Shown one piece after another: positions 2,051 through 23,416 of a DNA stretch of 23,416 nucleotides. The DNA is from a virus: positions 1-23,416 of IMG/VR virus record IMGVR_UViG_3300018876_000102, one strand, 5' to 3'. How positions within the stretch are numbered: the first letter of the stretch is position 1; the number at the start of each line of letters is the position of its first letter. A program made the position numbers and the translations under genes. Below the pieces are notes generated by a model. The model did no database searches, had not been told where the DNA came from, and was given only the letters and a program-made list of their open reading frames with translations.

Positions 2051-2058
2051 TATTTATC
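2051..2058 (-). promoter_or_regulatory. T4-like late promoter motif GATAAATA upstream of the left-edge gene
   Basis: The minus strand reads GATAAATAC followed by six more bases and then the ATG at 2043. The motif overlaps the TGA stop of gp17. It matches the T4 late consensus TATAAATA at six of eight positions and shares TAAATAC with eight other sites in the window. Promoter function is inferred from this recurrence. Confidence 0.6.
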
Positions 2059-3646
2059 AAAAACCGCCAGATACGAATATTGGCATTGGATACTCGTCTT
2101 CTGTCATTCTCTCCGTCAATTTTTCGTATATTTTAGGATCCCAATCAGCCAATTGATTAGCCATCCTTACAATAAGCAGACAAGCACTAACTAAATCGTC
2201 ATGCTCTCCTGTTTTTGCGTTATATCCTACTCCTGTTGCTACAAATGTCTTTAATTCAGATATTAGAGGCTTGCTGTTTATGACCATTTTGTTTTTTTCT
2301 ATTGCGTTTTTCAGTCCGCTACATGCTGTGATCTTAGTTTTGTGTGTTGTATTATACCCTTTTCTGAATTTCCTTACATGTCCTTTTCTAATAGGTTCTG
2401 ATAAAAACAGTCCATGGAAATTTTCTTCTCCTATATCTTTAATTACTACTAATGCTGCTTCGCCTATTGTGTTATTTTCACAACTATAGTAAATTGTAGG
2501 ATTTGAATTACCGCCAGCAACTTGTTCATCAAAGATATATTGTAAAATGCTTTTCAAATGTCTAATTTGTTGTTGCACAGGTGTAAGATTGTGTCGCCAC
2601 TCTCCTACCTGTTCCATTGATGGCATTTCAAATATTTGTATTGCTGCATAGTCTCCTCCTGTACCTAAACTAGGATCAAGTGCTAACAAATAAGTTGCTT
2701 TAGGATTAATCTTTTTATACCAACGTGTCTGTCCCATATTTTGTATAGGTTCTTTGCCTTCAAGTTCTGCAAGTTTAACACTGTTAATAAGTGTTTCATC
2801 AAAAATCAAGAACTCGCAATCAAACTCACGTCTAAATCTTTCTTCACCAATTTTCGCACGTTCTTCTTGTGCCCATTCTTCGTCTCTATCAGGATGTTCG
2901 TCCCATGGTGCAAAGAAAGGAAAAAATCCATTTGTTCCTACAACATTATCATTTCCATATTCGTCAAACTTTTTATTGGCTTCGGTCCATATCTGTGCAA
3001 ACTGATCTTCGTCTGAGTTTGGTGTGCTTGTAACTATTGCTTTACCACCTGTTGACAGTGTTGGAGAAAGTGCAGTCCAAAACTCTCGAGCTTTCTCTGG
3101 CGGTTGCACAAATGCAAACTCATCACAGTATATTAATGAAAGTGATTTACCACGTCCAGTATCTTCTGTTGTAGTAGTTGCTTGTATTCTACTACCGTTA
3201 TCAAATTCAATTGTGTTCCTGTTGTATGTATAGATACCTGCACGAATAAAGTCTGGCAAATTTTCATAACCAAATCTATATCTATTCATGATGTCTTGTG
3301 CACCTGTGTACTTGTGTGCAGCAATTAAAACTTGTGCTTCAGGAGTAAACATACAATACCACAAAAGGTATGCAGCCGCACAAGTAGTTTTACCCATCTG
3401 TCTTGGCAACATAGCAATTGTATATCTATGATCGTGATAGGCTCTTAATAATTCTTCTTGATATCCGTATGGGACAAAAGGCATACTGCCTTTAGTTGGA
3501 TGTTGTATATGAATAAAGTTTTTTGCAAAATATAAAGGACCTTCTTTAGGATCCATGCATCCTTCTAGATGTTTAACTTCATCTAGTGTATATTTTTGCT
3601 TTGTATGGGCCTTCTTAATTTGAACGCCATCTAAACTCTTTGCCAT
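2057..3646 (-). CDS. 17: Terminase large subunit gp17 (packaging ATPase and nuclease)
   Basis: This is the motor that pumps concatemeric DNA into the prohead through the portal and cuts it at headful. It has 529 residues, shorter than T4 gp17 (610). The N-terminal ATPase shows a Walker A of the gp17 type at about 80-88 (LPRQMGKTT), a Walker B at about 171-178 (LIYCDEFA) and the coupling motif TSTPN at 206-210. The C-terminal RNase H-like nuclease keeps three acidic residues: D324 in LALDPSLGTGGDYAAI, E390 in SCENNTIGEAAL, and D483/D484 in GEHDDLVSACL, matching T4 D401, E458 and D542. All catalytic motifs are intact, so the enzyme should be active. It is preceded by a UUCG-loop hairpin and a perfect TATAAATA whose last base is 5 bases from the ATG. 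No Shine-Dalgarno sequence is visible, so it appears to be its own transcription unit. Confidence 0.97.
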   Translation of the reverse strand: MAKSLDGVQIKKAHTKQKYTLDEVKHLEGCMDPKEGPLYFAKNFIHIQHPTKGSMPFVPYGYQEELLRAYHDHRYTIAMLPRQMGKTTCAAAYLLWYCMFTPEAQVLIAAHKYTGAQDIMNRYRFGYENLPDFIRAGIYTYNRNTIEFDNGSRIQATTTTEDTGRGKSLSLIYCDEFAFVQPPEKAREFWTALSPTLSTGGKAIVTSTPNSDEDQFAQIWTEANKKFDEYGNDNVVGTNGFFPFFAPWDEHPDRDEEWAQEERAKIGEERFRREFDCEFLIFDETLINSVKLAELEGKEPIQNMGQTRWYKKINPKATYLLALDPSLGTGGDYAAIQIFEMPSMEQVGEWRHNLTPVQQQIRHLKSILQYIFDEQVAGGNSNPTIYYSCENNTIGEAALVVIKDIGEENFHGLFLSEPIRKGHVRKFRKGYNTTHKTKITACSGLKNAIEKNKMVINSKPLISELKTFVATGVGYNAKTGEHDDLVSACLLIVRMANQLADWDPKIYEKLTERMTEDEYPMPIFVSGGF

Positions 3647-17640: not shown

Positions 17641-17914
17641 TTCAGAATCATTCCAAAATGATTTAAGTAGATATACGAATGAAATTAAAAAGATCGACAA
17701 CGTAGATGTTAAAACTAATTGTCAAACACTGCTTGATAGATTAATAAGTGAAGTAAACAAATTCGATAAAGAACATGAACAACTAATTTTTAGTAGAGAT
17801 ATTCGAGATAGTCAATCTGTGAAACAAAGTATGGTAGATATTAGAAAAGCTCTAGAAAGAAAAATAGAAGAGTATAAAAAAACAGTTCAAATTAGATCGA
17901 AACAAAGTTCTTAA
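17624..17914 (+). CDS. Small helical coiled-coil protein, 96 residues
   Basis: The product is almost wholly helical and charged: SFQNDLSRYTNEIKKIDN, TLLDRLISEVNKFDKEHEQL and MVDIRKALERKIEEYKKTVQ. No named family is recognised, but similar small helical proteins follow gp15-type genes in marine T4-like phages as I recall. The start overlaps the end of the Nudix-like gene by 17 bases and has Shine-Dalgarno TTGGAG (17611-17616) 7 bases upstream. Its final 23 bases overlap the convergent tail-fibre gene. It could be an assembly chaperone or small virion part. That is inference. Confidence 0.8.
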   Translation: MLSIFNSESFQNDLSRYTNEIKKIDNVDVKTNCQTLLDRLISEVNKFDKEHEQLIFSRDIRDSQSVKQSMVDIRKALERKIEEYKKTVQIRSKQSS

Positions 17915-19472
17915 CAGTAATATTTCCTACCATTCCTGAGTGTAACGAACATTGATATCTAAATGTTCCTGATTCGCTACTAGGAATTTTCCAATACAAG
18001 ACACCAGCGTCTTTACCTTGAGCACTTGCAGCGGTACTTACTGTTCCATCAGTTGCAACGTGTGTTAATCCTGTATTATAATTAGTTCCTGAAAAATCTT
18101 GAAGTAGGAAAGGATGTGATCCTGCCATAGTGCTTAAATTAAATGCTATAGTTGTTCCGTTTAGTGCATATATTGTAGGATTATTTGTAGCCCCATATTG
18201 ATCAAATCTGTAAGCAGTGCTGCCACTGTTTGTTACATCTAACATAGTAATTGCTGGTAGATATATTTTATCAACTGTCAAATTTGCTTCATCAACATCT
18301 GTAAGGTCATCAAAATTAGGTGTTGATGCTGATGCTGTAAACGTTATTGTATCAGTAGTAGCATTAGTTGTAATATTGATTCCTGAACCACCTACAAATG
18401 TTACTTCATCAGTTTCGCTATCTGCTACAACACTAGATTGTCCAGATATTGCAAATGATGCAAAAGCATTTTGATTTGCATCTCCGCCTCCAGCAGATGC
18501 AGAAGGTATCCAATTAGACCCGTTCCATTGTAAAACATCGTTTGTACTAGGTGCCGATGACGTAGTATCTACATCACCAAGAGCATCTATACTTGAACTA
18601 CCAGTTAGATATGTTCCAAGATCACTTATCTGACTTTCAGTAATACTAAGTGCTGCTTGGTGTTGTGTGACACTTGACTCAGTAATGTTTACATTTGGCA
18701 CATTTGCCCAAGTAACTGCTGCTGTTAGATCGTTTACTTCAGCAGTTAACGCTCCTAAACCTGAGGCTGTTGGAGGAGTAAATTTAAATTCACCTGTACT
18801 ATTATCATAAGAGATTGCACCATTGCCGCTTGGAGTATTTTCAATACCAATACTTAAACTTGCTAGTGTTAAAATTGCAGGTTTGTTGTTTAAATTATTA
18901 TAATCAAGGTAATAAGAACCGTCAAAACCATCAAGTGTATCAGCATCTGTGCCAGCGCCACCAGTTGTAGCATCTGCGCCAGGAGCCCATTGTGCACCAT
19001 TCCATTTTAAAACTTGTCCTGTTGTCGGAGCAGAACTTGTTGTATCAACATCACTTAGAAAGTCAATGCTAAATGCATCCATGTTAATTTCTACATTGTC
19101 TGTATCTGTAGCAATAGAGGTTGATATATTTGTGCCACCGATTATATTAAGAGTATCATTAATACTTGCTGCTACTGTTGAACCTTCATCAGCAGTAATA
19201 GTACCAAAGGCATCTCCACCGCCACCTGTACTAGTAATAGTAAGTGTGTCGCCTACTATTGCAGTAGTAACATTAGTGCCGCCAGCAACTGTAAGACTGT
19301 CTGTAGGAATGTTGGCTTCAGTAAATCCTGTATCTGCATTGAATCTTGTAAAAATATTTGCTCCAGGCGGTGATGTGGTTACATTCCAGGAAGTACCGTC
19401 ATACTGCCAAGTAGTACTACCTTCTGTAAATGTATCATTTAGTGCCGGGCTAGCCGGAAAGTTTATTGCCAT
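17892..19472 (-). CDS. Tail fibre protein with C-terminal cupredoxin (type-1 copper) domain
   Basis: The 526-residue protein is Ser/Thr/Gly/Asn-rich like trimeric phage fibres. Residues 20-30 have a TWQYDGTSW unit. Two clear copies of a fibre module, DVDTTSSAP followed by VL(K/Q)WNG..W.P, lie at 141-164 and 300-323, with a third degenerate one at 388-395. From about 405 the chain changes to a cupredoxin fold: DVTNSGSTAYRFDQYG, NPTIYALNGTTIAF, GSHPFLL, then YWKIP and FRYQCSLHSGMVGNITV. The ligand set H453, C508, H511 and M514 has the amicyanin-like spacing C-x2-H-x2-M and is complete. Such domains occur in some marine viral and bacterial surface proteins. Whether it binds copper or a host ligand is open. 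Shine-Dalgarno AAGGAA sits before the ATG and ACTAAATA 17 bases upstream. The 3' end overlaps the coiled-coil gene. Confidence 0.85.
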   Translation of the reverse strand: MAINFPASPALNDTFTEGSTTWQYDGTSWNVTTSPPGANIFTRFNADTGFTEANIPTDSLTVAGGTNVTTAIVGDTLTITSTGGGGDAFGTITADEGSTVAASINDTLNIIGGTNISTSIATDTDNVEINMDAFSIDFLSDVDTTSSAPTTGQVLKWNGAQWAPGADATTGGAGTDADTLDGFDGSYYLDYNNLNNKPAILTLASLSIGIENTPSGNGAISYDNSTGEFKFTPPTASGLGALTAEVNDLTAAVTWANVPNVNITESSVTQHQAALSITESQISDLGTYLTGSSSIDALGDVDTTSSAPSTNDVLQWNGSNWIPSASAGGGDANQNAFASFAISGQSSVVADSETDEVTFVGGSGINITTNATTDTITFTASASTPNFDDLTDVDEANLTVDKIYLPAITMLDVTNSGSTAYRFDQYGATNNPTIYALNGTTIAFNLSTMAGSHPFLLQDFSGTNYNTGLTHVATDGTVSTAASAQGKDAGVLYWKIPSSESGTFRYQCSLHSGMVGNITVKNFVSI

Positions 19473-19489
19473 AATATTTCCTTATACAG

Positions 19490-19497
19490 TATTTAGT
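19490..19497 (-). promoter_or_regulatory. T4-like late promoter motif ACTAAATA upstream of the cupredoxin fibre
   Basis: The minus strand reads ACTAAATACTGTATAAGG. The motif overlaps by one base the TAA stop of the protease gene (19497-19499) and ends 17 bases before the fibre ATG. An AAGGAA Shine-Dalgarno sequence lies between, so this copy gives a leader. Confidence 0.6.
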
Positions 19498-22466
19498 TAT
19501 TTCTTCAATCTGAAGTTTGCTGCGCCTTTTATTGTTAGTTTATTTGTGATTCTACGCTTGCCTGTTTTGAATCTTTCATCCCAAGGTGCTTGATATAACA
19601 CTCTAGGTGATGCACCTTCTAAACTTGGATAGTCAGTCCAATTAGCGTCATTAGGTGTTGTAGATTCAACACCAACGTAAAAATCACTTGAATCTTGGGT
19701 GTTTAAGTTTAGTGTCCATTCTTTTAATTCTTTCCATGTCCAATCTCTATTGTGTTCTAAAACTGTTGTTAAGAATCCAGCAGCAACTGGGCATGCAGCA
19801 CTAGTACCACTAAAAGCACAATCTGTAGCAACTTCTGATTCTGTAAATCCTGGATAGGTATCAGGTCTATCAGAAAGTTCAGTATACATTTTGTTTGCTG
19901 CTAGTGTTCCATCTGCTGCTGCAAATACATCTATTTGATTGCCTCTATCACTATACCCTACTTTTCTTTCTGTGCTTCCTGTGCCATAGTTGTCATCTAA
20001 CGCACCTATATTAATAGTTTTATAATCTGTATTTCCATCTGCGTTTGTATACCTTCCACCTTGTTGAGGAAATCCTGTTCTATTAGTTGTGCCATAAACT
20101 TCAACACCAAATTCAAATACTGAACTATCTTCTAAACTGCCGGCGTCAGTAGTTGTAATGTAATTGTCATAATCAGGGTGTCCTTCTTTAACAACTTTTT
20201 GATTGCTGTTTCCTGCAGCACCAACAAAGATTACTCCTTCTTCGATCATTTCGTCTAGTGCAGTGGTTAATGAATTAGTTTTCATTTGGCCTTTCCAACG
20301 TCCACTATCACCTTGTGTTCCCATATGGCTTAACCAAGCAATACCTGTTTCAGTTGTGTAAGATACATTTGCAGTTGCACGATGAGTATAATACAAGGTT
20401 GTTGCATTGCTAACATTAGCATTCAATGAGCTAGGTGATTTATCTGAACGATATCCCCAACTGTTTGAAGATAGTGTTGGATCTTTTGTTTGGTAAACAG
20501 GATTTATAGGTTTTAGTCTATGAAATAATTTTTGTAAGTCAAATCCTTGTTCAATACCTATGCCTAAACTGCCATACAGGTCAAGATTCCATTTGTTTGC
20601 ATTATAGGCCCAACCCTGTGTTCTACCAAATGCTAAAGCACCACATGGCGTGCCGTGTCTTCCTTCTGTGCCAGGAGGTTTAGCAGTATTATCTCCGTTG
20701 CAGTTTGATCTCGTGTAGTTTGAAGTTACTGTTACTGTTCCTTCATTGGCAAATTTAGCACTACGTTGTGAAGCATTGCCCCACCAATCACGTGCTACAC
20801 TTTCTACAGGAACTATTGTGCCGTCCCAACGTGTTGTAAGCCTATCGGTAACGGTGACATTATATCCTGATGCACCTGCAACTGTTGGATCACCTGTGTC
20901 TCCGTCTTGGAATATATTTCTAATAGTAGCAAGTGACGGTTTACTAATTACCGGAGCAATATATGAATTGTGTAGTGCATACCCTAGAGGGTTATTAGAT
21001 TGTATGCCTGCTGGTGTACGCATACTATCGCTCCACTCAGGACTAAGGCTTCCGCCTTCCCATAGACTTGAATAATCAAACATACAAAAGTTTAGTAGAT
21101 ACAAATATTCTTTAGCCGCTACTTCAAATGCATCTCCATCAGTCTTCCAAGCATTTCCGCCATATCCTGATGAATCCCAAAAACCTCCATCGTATGCTTC
21201 TACCATTGCATTATACAATGGACCAGTGTTCCAATCTGAACTTAAAAAAGGATACAACTTTAATGTTTGTGCATCTAAACCATGCATATGTATTGTGTGA
21301 AATACGTGTTCAATAACTTCTTGTGCGTCTTGATCGCCATCGCCTGGCGATCCACCTGTTGAGTTTAGATACCACACCATATCGTTTTGAACAGTAGCGT
21401 CAAACAAGTCTGTTAGGTTCCAAAATATAATGCCAGCATCTGTTAAAAAGTTTGTGCTATAGTCTGCACCAGCACCTCTTGCTACTCTTTGTATTGTTGG
21501 TTTGCCTGCATGATATGTTCCTGTGTCACCGCTTAAATTTTGTATTAATGCTCGTTGTGCTGTTTCGTTTATACCTGTGCCTGTTGGATCTGTAAACAGT
21601 TCAAACATACGTGCTACTTTTTCAACAAATGCGTCTGGTACTGCTGTTTGTCCTCCAACTCCACCTGCAGCCATAATTCTTACACCATTAACAGTAACTT
21701 CACGTTTGAAAAAATCACTGCCATCGCCGACTACATCGATAATTGCGCCATTGTTGTATTCTGGATCAGTACTAGCGTTGAACCATTCTGGATCAATATA
21801 ATAAGGTGCATCAAGAACAAGATCTAATACATCACAAGTACCATTTCCTGGAAGAAGATTTCCTCCTGTATATCCTATAGGTTTTTCTAGTTCTGTTGTT
21901 TGGCTGAAAAATTCAACACAATTACTTTGAAACTCAGGATGTCCTAACCACATTCCTTCATCTGCTACAACTAAATCTACATGCTTTCCATTAGCATATT
22001 GCTGTATTGTTGTATTAACAATAGCATTTTCAGCCAGACTTCCATCTACCCAAGGATCTAAAAACTGCATATGCCTGTATAACTGATATCCTGTTCTATT
22101 TGGAGTGAGACTGCCAAGTAACACCGTTGAAGTGTTTCTATGATTTTCTACAGAGCCGGAAGAGTAACGATTAACTAGCTCAGGCCTTACTGCTTGTAAT
22201 TCATCCGGCGGTGGCTTAAATTCTTCATATTTTGAATAATCAATATTAATAAATCGTACTCTAGAGTCTGACTTTAGTGCTGTTGCTTCTTCGTCTGTTA
22301 GTAGATAAGATCCTCTAGTAGGACTGTGTTGCTTGTCGTCATCAACTGTTACAGTACGAGTAGGTACTGCTTCATATGTATTTCCGTCTGCAATTAATTC
22401 CGCATGCAGTTCTTGCCATTGTTCTTCGGTATGTGTACCTAGTTGATAATATTTTTCATCAGCCAT
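19497..22466 (-). CDS. Subtilisin-like (S8) serine protease of the virion, with large insertion
   Basis: The 989-residue protein contains all S8 motifs in order. The Asp motif is HVDLVVADEGMWLGHPEF with D169. The His motif is EGRHGTPCGALAFG with H604. The oxyanion Asn is N753 in VGAAGNSN. The Ser motif is FSGTSAACPVAAG with S889. Residues 5-80 resemble an I9-type propeptide (YLLTDEEATALKSDSRVRFINID), so the enzyme may be made as a zymogen. Subtilisin has about 32 residues between Asp and His; here there are 435. The insertion includes EVIEHVFHTIHMHG (383-396), a His/Glu cluster suggesting metal binding. There is no signal peptide. Lying between two fibre genes and sharing their strand, it is probably a tail-associated enzyme that degrades host surface protein or processes fibres. 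Shine-Dalgarno AAGGG overlaps the upstream fibre's stop. Confidence 0.85.
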   Translation of the reverse strand: MADEKYYQLGTHTEEQWQELHAELIADGNTYEAVPTRTVTVDDDKQHSPTRGSYLLTDEEATALKSDSRVRFINIDYSKYEEFKPPPDELQAVRPELVNRYSSGSVENHRNTSTVLLGSLTPNRTGYQLYRHMQFLDPWVDGSLAENAIVNTTIQQYANGKHVDLVVADEGMWLGHPEFQSNCVEFFSQTTELEKPIGYTGGNLLPGNGTCDVLDLVLDAPYYIDPEWFNASTDPEYNNGAIIDVVGDGSDFFKREVTVNGVRIMAAGGVGGQTAVPDAFVEKVARMFELFTDPTGTGINETAQRALIQNLSGDTGTYHAGKPTIQRVARGAGADYSTNFLTDAGIIFWNLTDLFDATVQNDMVWYLNSTGGSPGDGDQDAQEVIEHVFHTIHMHGLDAQTLKLYPFLSSDWNTGPLYNAMVEAYDGGFWDSSGYGGNAWKTDGDAFEVAAKEYLYLLNFCMFDYSSLWEGGSLSPEWSDSMRTPAGIQSNNPLGYALHNSYIAPVISKPSLATIRNIFQDGDTGDPTVAGASGYNVTVTDRLTTRWDGTIVPVESVARDWWGNASQRSAKFANEGTVTVTSNYTRSNCNGDNTAKPPGTEGRHGTPCGALAFGRTQGWAYNANKWNLDLYGSLGIGIEQGFDLQKLFHRLKPINPVYQTKDPTLSSNSWGYRSDKSPSSLNANVSNATTLYYTHRATANVSYTTETGIAWLSHMGTQGDSGRWKGQMKTNSLTTALDEMIEEGVIFVGAAGNSNQKVVKEGHPDYDNYITTTDAGSLEDSSVFEFGVEVYGTTNRTGFPQQGGRYTNADGNTDYKTINIGALDDNYGTGSTERKVGYSDRGNQIDVFAAADGTLAANKMYTELSDRPDTYPGFTESEVATDCAFSGTSAACPVAAGFLTTVLEHNRDWTWKELKEWTLNLNTQDSSDFYVGVESTTPNDANWTDYPSLEGASPRVLYQAPWDERFKTGKRRITNKLTIKGAANFRLKK

Positions 22467-22476
22467 TGTCTAACCC

Positions 22477-23416
22477 TTATATCAAGTTTACCCAAGAGCC
22501 ATTCTCATATCCTTGAAATTTATTGTCAGTAGTATTGTATATAAGATCACCATTTGCTGCTGTAAGAGCATTACGTTCTACTGTTGTAACTCTTAACATT
22601 TGTAAAGGACCTGTAGTCGGAACAATTCTAGTTCCTGCATTCAATTCTATTTCATTATCGGAAAATATTTCAGGAGTTCCAGACCCTTCAGAAGTAAACT
22701 CGCCGTTTATTATTAAATTGTTTTGTACAGTTAAATTATTGTTTACTACTGCATCATTGTTTACATTTAAATTTACACCCACTGTTGCATCTTGTAATAC
22801 TGTCAAATCGTTACCAACTGTGACATCACTGTCCATATCTACAGCAGGAGTAAACACAATGCTTGTACTATCTGTACTGTCAATTGTGTTTGAACTAAAT
22901 GTAATGTTTCCAGTATTTCCTGCTACGGATATATCGCCTGAACCTAGTACACTACTTCCATTTATAGTTTTAATATTTGTTCCACTAACCAAAGTTGCTT
23001 GGCCGTCACTTATGCCGTATCCTGATAATGTAGTTGGTGTACCTGTTAAACTTGCAAAAGTTTGTGCTGGAACTGAAGTTAAATACCCACTGTCATTAGT
23101 GAATGCGCTTACATTAGTAGGAGCACCTGTTAAATCACCATAGGCTCCGCTAAAACCTCCTGAAGCATCTTGAAATGTAAATGTGCCATTACCGTTTGTA
23201 GTTAAGACTTGTCCGTTTGTTCCATCTGCAATTCCTAATCCTAATAGCGTACCAGGAGCAGGTGCAGCAGGTTGTACCCATTGACTACTATCTGTATCTT
23301 GCACATATACATACAATTTAGCAGTCGAACTATTATACCATATATCTCCTTGTGATGGACTATCAGGAGCAGTGTCAGAAACTGCTAAACTTGCGCCGCC
23401 GCTACCAGAACCTGTA
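22477..23416 (-). CDS. Tail fibre protein, N-terminus beyond right edge
   Basis: The frame is open to the window end, so the true start lies beyond 23416. A TTG at 23316 is an internal codon, because in-frame sequence upstream continues a clear fibre module: SDTAPDSPSQGDIWYN then LYVYVQDTDSSQWV. Downstream of that are Gly/Ser/Asn-rich repeats typical of collagen-free beta fibres (GLGIADGTNGQVL, YGDLTGAPTNVSAFTNDSGYLTS, FASLTGTPTTLSGYGISDG). A run of Val/Asn heptad-like strands follows (DLTVLQDATVGVNLNVNNDAVVNNNLTVQNNLIIN), forming a long beta-helix-like shaft. The end MLRVTTVERNALTAANGDLIYNT and YENGSWVNLI is a common tip or chaperone-attachment module. It is followed by the protease after 10 bases. 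Confidence 0.85.
   Translation of the reverse strand, partial: TGSGSGGASLAVSDTAPDSPSQGDIWYNSSTAKLYVYVQDTDSSQWVQPAAPAPGTLLGLGIADGTNGQVLTTNGNGTFTFQDASGGFSGAYGDLTGAPTNVSAFTNDSGYLTSVPAQTFASLTGTPTTLSGYGISDGQATLVSGTNIKTINGSSVLGSGDISVAGNTGNITFSSNTIDSTDSTSIVFTPAVDMDSDVTVGNDLTVLQDATVGVNLNVNNDAVVNNNLTVQNNLIINGEFTSEGSGTPEIFSDNEIELNAGTRIVPTTGPLQMLRVTTVERNALTAANGDLIYNTTDNKFQGYENGSWVNLI

Follow-up and report, generated by a model that had tools for sequence, protein, structure and literature searches.

The window, by which we mean the whole analysed stretch of 23,416 nucleotides, comes from a marine T4-like phage and carries a gene for a 989-residue subtilase of peptidase family S8, set between two tail genes and interrupted by a module of 304 residues. 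The features discussed below, all on the minus strand, are as follows.

17892..19472, minus strand: gp9/fibre-connector-like gene, downstream of the protease, a conserved neighbour (phrog_677, 5e-73)
19497..22466, minus strand: S8 subtilase ORF with inserted module, 989 aa (Pfam, PHROG, Foldseek and PDB profile matches)
19662..20837, minus strand: catalytic domain, C-terminal part, residues 544-935 (Pfam Peptidase_S8 at 585-922)
19800..19802, minus strand: catalytic S889 (alignment columns)
20208..20210, minus strand: oxyanion N753 (alignment columns)
20655..20657, minus strand: catalytic H604 (alignment columns)
20856..21767, minus strand: inserted module, residues 234-537, 304 aa (empty-site homologues; sharp DNA-level edges)
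21108..21110, minus strand: E453 of a KEY motif, candidate third metal ligand (invariant; second long helix of the model)
21288..21320, minus strand: invariant E-x-x-E-H-x-x-H-T-x-H motif, E383 to H393 (module alignment)
21768..22154, minus strand: catalytic domain, N-terminal part, residues 105-233 (homologue alignment)
21960-21962, minus strand: catalytic D169 (alignment columns)
22215..22460, minus strand: I9-like (propeptide-like) N-terminal domain, residues 3-84 (family conservation, weak Inhibitor_I9)
22477..23415, minus strand: fibre-like gene, upstream of the protease and running off the contig, a conserved neighbour (phrog_9729 tail fiber, 2e-11)

The initial annotation had recognized a subtilisin-type protease with all catalytic motifs, and both claims hold. 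Pfam Peptidase_S8 matches residues 585-922 of the ORF (7.4e-14), the phrog_9158 profile matches its catalytic domain (8.3e-85), and a profile of the family compared with PDB sequences retrieves aqualysin and subtilisins (2.5e-14 and weaker); the AlphaFold model of the ORF resembles proteinase K and subtilisins (Foldseek E about 1e-8). The triad D169/H604/S889 occurs in the S8 order with the signature motifs, N753 occupies the oxyanion position, and the earlier numbering of S889 was exact. Catalytic substitutions in homologues, named at that time as evidence against the proposal, were not seen: scored by alignment columns, all four sites are kept in 107 of the 108 distinct homologues (from a set of 121) that are complete there, and the lone exception, L167, is perhaps misaligned in the Asp region. 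The gene family itself is already known in cyanophages as T4-GC 292/phrog_9158, and its member from phage P-SSM2 matches the phrog_9158 profile at 1.3e-202.

The N-terminal 80 or so residues are conserved throughout the S8 family, and in the AlphaFold model they form a domain of alternating strands and helices. Pfam Inhibitor_I9 gave weak matches in four of 20 family members (best E 0.0046) and no match to the N-terminal domain of the window protein itself. Because of this conservation and these weak matches, the label "propeptide-like" given earlier to this end of the protein is fair. The absence of a secretion signal, also proposed at that time, agrees with the start MADEKYYQLG, which contains no hydrophobic signal.

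The protease had further been placed between two tail fibres. The upstream neighbour is indeed fibre-like; the downstream one is instead a gp9/fibre-connector-like gene. A survey of gene neighbourhoods, suggested together with that placement, demonstrated that the order fibre, protease, gp9 is found again in most of the related contigs whose flanks are long enough: both neighbours were found in the expected order and strand at 64 of 167 S8 loci and one neighbour at 65 more, many of the remaining loci being cut by contig ends or belonging to diverged S8 lineages. Thus the part of the earlier interpretation that concerned an intact S8 protease in a conserved fibre/tail cassette stands; it had overlooked the 304-residue module and the prior annotation of S8 genes in cyanophages.

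Among cultured phages, the S8 genes PSSM2_297 (P-SSM2) and SSSM7_232 (S-SSM7), both assigned to T4-GC 292 and described as "contains PF00082", lie in tail-fibre/spike clusters, and the S8 gene of S-CREM1 adjoins a baseplate wedge/tail pin gene; Sullivan et al. 2010 (PMC3037559) mention T4-GC518, a cluster of S8 peptidases, in P-HM1 and P-HM2. The T4-GC 292 proteins share with the window protein the family, the N-terminal domain and the tail-fibre cluster setting. They differ in that the three closest cyanophage homologues aligned lack the 304-residue module, and the overall identity to the window protein is about 40%. In phage S-TIM54 (L256:7998-14420), the S8 domain is part of a predicted virion structural protein of 2140 residues, which also carries tail, Hoc-like (decoration) and fibre segments and in which an esterase-like segment separates the N domain from the catalytic part. 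This fusion gives the best support, of an indirect kind, for the predicted virion location of S8 proteins, and the window protein too is probably a virion component. No proteomic record of this S8 protein was found, and literature searches, with most subscription journals outside their reach, found no paper describing a virion-linked S8 protease or the module. Compared with polysaccharide depolymerases, tail proteases have received little study. One further contig (L044:4995-8610) encodes a tandem pair of S8 subtilases, one near the family of the window and the other about 25% identical.

The module sits in frame between the catalytic Asp and His, and it is not subtilase sequence. In tblastn searches, residues 215-540 were 75-80% identical to cyanophage baseplate wedge proteins, whereas the matches of the remainder of the ORF were cyanophage subtilases, at about 40%. 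The subtilases of the cultured phages S-SSM7, Sf-FS3 and S-SCSM2R align straight through this place, from YYIDPxxFNA to LTxRWDGT, without an insert, and the module is also absent from the contigs L018 and L019. It occupies the same site in close subtilases (L008-L012 and L016), follows just after the Asp motif in diverged subtilases of about 26% identity (L025, L026, L033 and L057), is found at subtilase C-termini (L042, L062-L066 and L081), and occurs inside giant baseplate proteins without a detected protease domain. Altogether 205 ORFs carry it: 88 inside an S8 domain, 28 C-terminal to one, five truncated at the 5' end and 84 without a detectable S8 domain. The carrier in phage Syn33 (Syn33_094) is a phrog_708 baseplate wedge protein of 1721 residues, about one module longer than the 1383-position profile of its family. 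This carrier is not a protease; its module is about 82% identical to that of the window and again appears inserted when the protein is compared with its family. Nine of nine large contigs with the module contain a single copy, and so do all 85 cultured phage records, where it resides in baseplate proteins.

No significant match to the module was obtained in Pfam, PHROGs or NCBIfam, and two module profiles (A1 and A5) gave no usable match among PDB sequences. Judged from its sequences, the module is a discrete, undescribed family; it is in none of the searched family libraries, yet hundreds of phage stretches matched it in one public collection. Among about 85,000 bacterial species, relatives were detected at four loci: two lie on contigs of a single Rhodobacteraceae bin, the third in an Opitutia and the fourth in a Litorivicinus genome. 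The Rhodobacteraceae contigs encode an S8 domain with the module as in phages and may be phage-derived, and no further relatives were found in 369 Opitutia and 289 Litorivicinus genomes. The Litorivicinus protein indicates that the module family exists in bacteria outside subtilases. In that protein (L171:5998-8058), the module relative (37%) is followed by an apparent dockerin-type repeat.

An alignment of 129 distinct module rows revealed seven invariant residues (in module numbering H86, E150, E153, H154, H157, T158 and E220), and their invariance extends to the bacterial relatives at 37-49% identity. All 127 sequences that have residues at these positions show the EHxxH core, and the last His of the motif is kept in 126 of 127; the zincin motif HExxH is absent. 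The AlphaFold model of the module (pLDDT 85, pTM 0.86) places the motif on one helix and the invariant Glu on a second long helix. Foldseek comparison of this model with PDB yielded weak matches, the best being lugdulysin (E 0.096), and nothing below E 0.05 was found in BFVD. After re-ranking by VIA-align, all 50 matches listed were zinc metallopeptidases or toxins of the zincin fold, among them lethal factor, collagenases G/H and members of M30 and M1; the best was PPEP with a Z-score of 7.1, and Z below 8 may reflect a common arrangement. The closest structural neighbours (PPEP, collagenase G/H and the M30 enzyme lugdulysin) are zincins with Glu as the third ligand, which resemble the module in the motif helix and the Glu of a second helix; they have HExxH where the module has EHxxH, and no sequence match connects them. 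Since the order of the residues in EHxxH departs from HExxH, we do not file the module as a zincin; its fold is possibly zincin-like, the resemblance being weak. By analogy, E153, H157 and E220 could serve as metal ligands and H154 as the base. In the full-length model the confidence of the module, and with it that of its position with respect to the S8 cleft, is low.

The large terminase subunit of the window (2057-3646, minus strand) is 55% identical to those of PA5oct-like Pseudomonas jumbo phages and about 32% identical to those of cyanophages, and an assignment of the window to a cyanophage is thus unsupported. We also note that the tail cassette of the window resembles cyanophage ones despite this PA5oct-like terminase. 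The window module is 74-81% identical at the protein level to those in the baseplate wedge proteins of S-RIM2, S-RIM12, Syn33 and S-B43; for S-RIM2 and S-RIM12, modules 74-79% identical contrast with terminases of about 32%.

At the DNA level, blastn homology breaks off at residue 233 and about residue 535 in nearly every context. The contig L019 lacks the module, and its flanks are 90.0% and 94.4% identical in nucleotides to those of the window (over 1.6 and 5.8 kb). Conversely, the module of L025 is 97.9% identical to that of the window in DNA (97% in amino acids) with sharp edges, whereas the S8 domains share only 26% of their amino acids. Over 85 distinct ORFs with both parts, the correlation between module and S8 identity is loose (Spearman 0.32), and pairs whose S8 domains share under 35% have modules up to 97% identical. 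The hexamer GATCCA occurs both at the edge of the module and in the empty site and was judged to represent common Asp-Pro codons. Because nearly the same module is found at other sites of other tail proteins, it behaves as an exchangeable host-contact part. The architecture alone, an S8 protease with an exchangeable module, we regard as near certain. Swapping of the module between proteases, baseplate proteins and further tail proteins provides natural pairs of phages with and without it, in which effects on adsorption could be compared.

The interpretation that we favour, and consider rather probable, is a tail-cassette S8 proenzyme that acts at the virion surface, cuts host-surface proteins and has a loop carrying exchangeable modules. 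The protein would be made as a proenzyme, would probably form part of the virion close to the junction of fibre and baseplate, and would presumably cleave host-surface proteins during adsorption. The loop separating the catalytic Asp from the His would be the insertion site for exchangeable modules and would here hold the undescribed 304-residue module, with its EHxxH...E residues and possibly zincin-like fold. This module would move between phages as a DNA cassette, settling also in giant baseplate proteins, and would contribute, at the point of contact, either binding or a second enzymatic activity that depends on a metal. A more specific proposal, which we put forward tentatively at somewhat less than an even chance, is that the module represents a new family of metal-dependent hydrolases with an EHxxH...E site, usually present in one copy per genome, spread as a DNA cassette across distant T4-like lineages and mounted on any tail protein that accepts it, including a virion protease, inside whose catalytic domain it would create a two-enzyme tool for host contact. 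If catalytic, the EHxxH site would be a new arrangement among metal-dependent hydrolases.

Compatible with the favoured interpretation of the S8 domain is a different view of the module, which could be a non-catalytic adhesin or receptor-binding domain with the protease merely as its carrier. The movement of the module between S8 proteins, baseplate proteins and further tail proteins fits this view, and "evolved" Dit proteins, which contain carbohydrate-binding inserts, provide a precedent (PMC10688798). The invariant cluster of Glu and His on one helix together with the Glu of the second helix, conserved in all 129 rows including the bacterial relatives, resembles a metal or catalytic site and not a variable binding face, and we hold a purely binding role to be a real possibility of clearly less than even probability. 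These evolved Dit proteins are the closest functional precedent: in lactococcal skunaviruses the module is likewise an in-frame insertion into a tail protein, its presence varies among relatives, and the inserted domain changes adsorption (PMC10688798). The carrier there is a structural tail protein with a sugar-binding insert, whereas in the window it is a protease with an EHxxH insert.

The conserved adjacency to fibre and gp9-like genes, the propeptide-like domain and the lack of a signal peptide would also suit a maturation protease, which would trim the neighbouring fibre or gp9-like proteins in the infected cell during tail assembly and not act on the host surface; peptidases linked to the virion type in jumbo phages have been proposed as maturation enzymes (PMC7824862). 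The often-swapped module and the fusion of S8 to long fibre and decoration segments fit an exposed part of the virion better, although neither is decisive, and we consider a maturation role unlikely. For a selfish element at the protein level, for instance an intein, one could cite the in-frame position between catalytic residues of an enzyme, the sharp bounds, the length of about 300 residues and the patchy distribution; we rejected this very improbable explanation, as copies forming protein C-termini without a C-extein (L042, L062, L066 and L081) contradict it, the first residue is not Cys or Ser, the His-Asn end is lacking, and no intein or endonuclease family was matched. Finally, an assembly chimera, conceivable for the window and most S8-module fusions as metagenome contigs, is rejected as still more improbable, since L014, a separate contig, continues through the right junction with 99.8% identity over 6.6 kb, L008, L009 and L010 align unbroken over both junctions, and baseplate proteins contain the module in the 85 cultured phage records.

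Consistent with the favoured interpretation of the Asp-His loop, the same loop in three other subtilases holds a cupredoxin-like domain instead of the EHxxH module. This insert and a similar domain of the window are located as follows.

L073:4956-7415 (also L074 and L076): subtilase with cupredoxin-like insert (Pfam Copper-bind, PDB)
17895-18239 of the window, minus strand: cupredoxin-like domain, C-terminal 115 aa of the gp9-like gene (weak Copper-bind match, E 0.055)

The loop insert matches Copper-bind with E 0.0035, which is below the curated cutoff, and has weak PDB matches to copper nitrite reductase (the best, E 0.0015) and amicyanin; a His-Cys-His-Met ligand pattern can be recognized by eye. 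Comparison of these sequences thus indicates that the loop is a docking site for different modules. In L004, a related cupredoxin-like domain is present elsewhere in the S8 protein. As a separate observation, the C-terminus of the gp9-like protein of the window displays an apparent His...Cys-x-x-His-x-x-Met copper-ligand pattern. Related cupredoxin-like copies follow the S8 gene in most related contigs, and the homologue of this gp9-like domain in S-SCSM2R is annotated as PetE.
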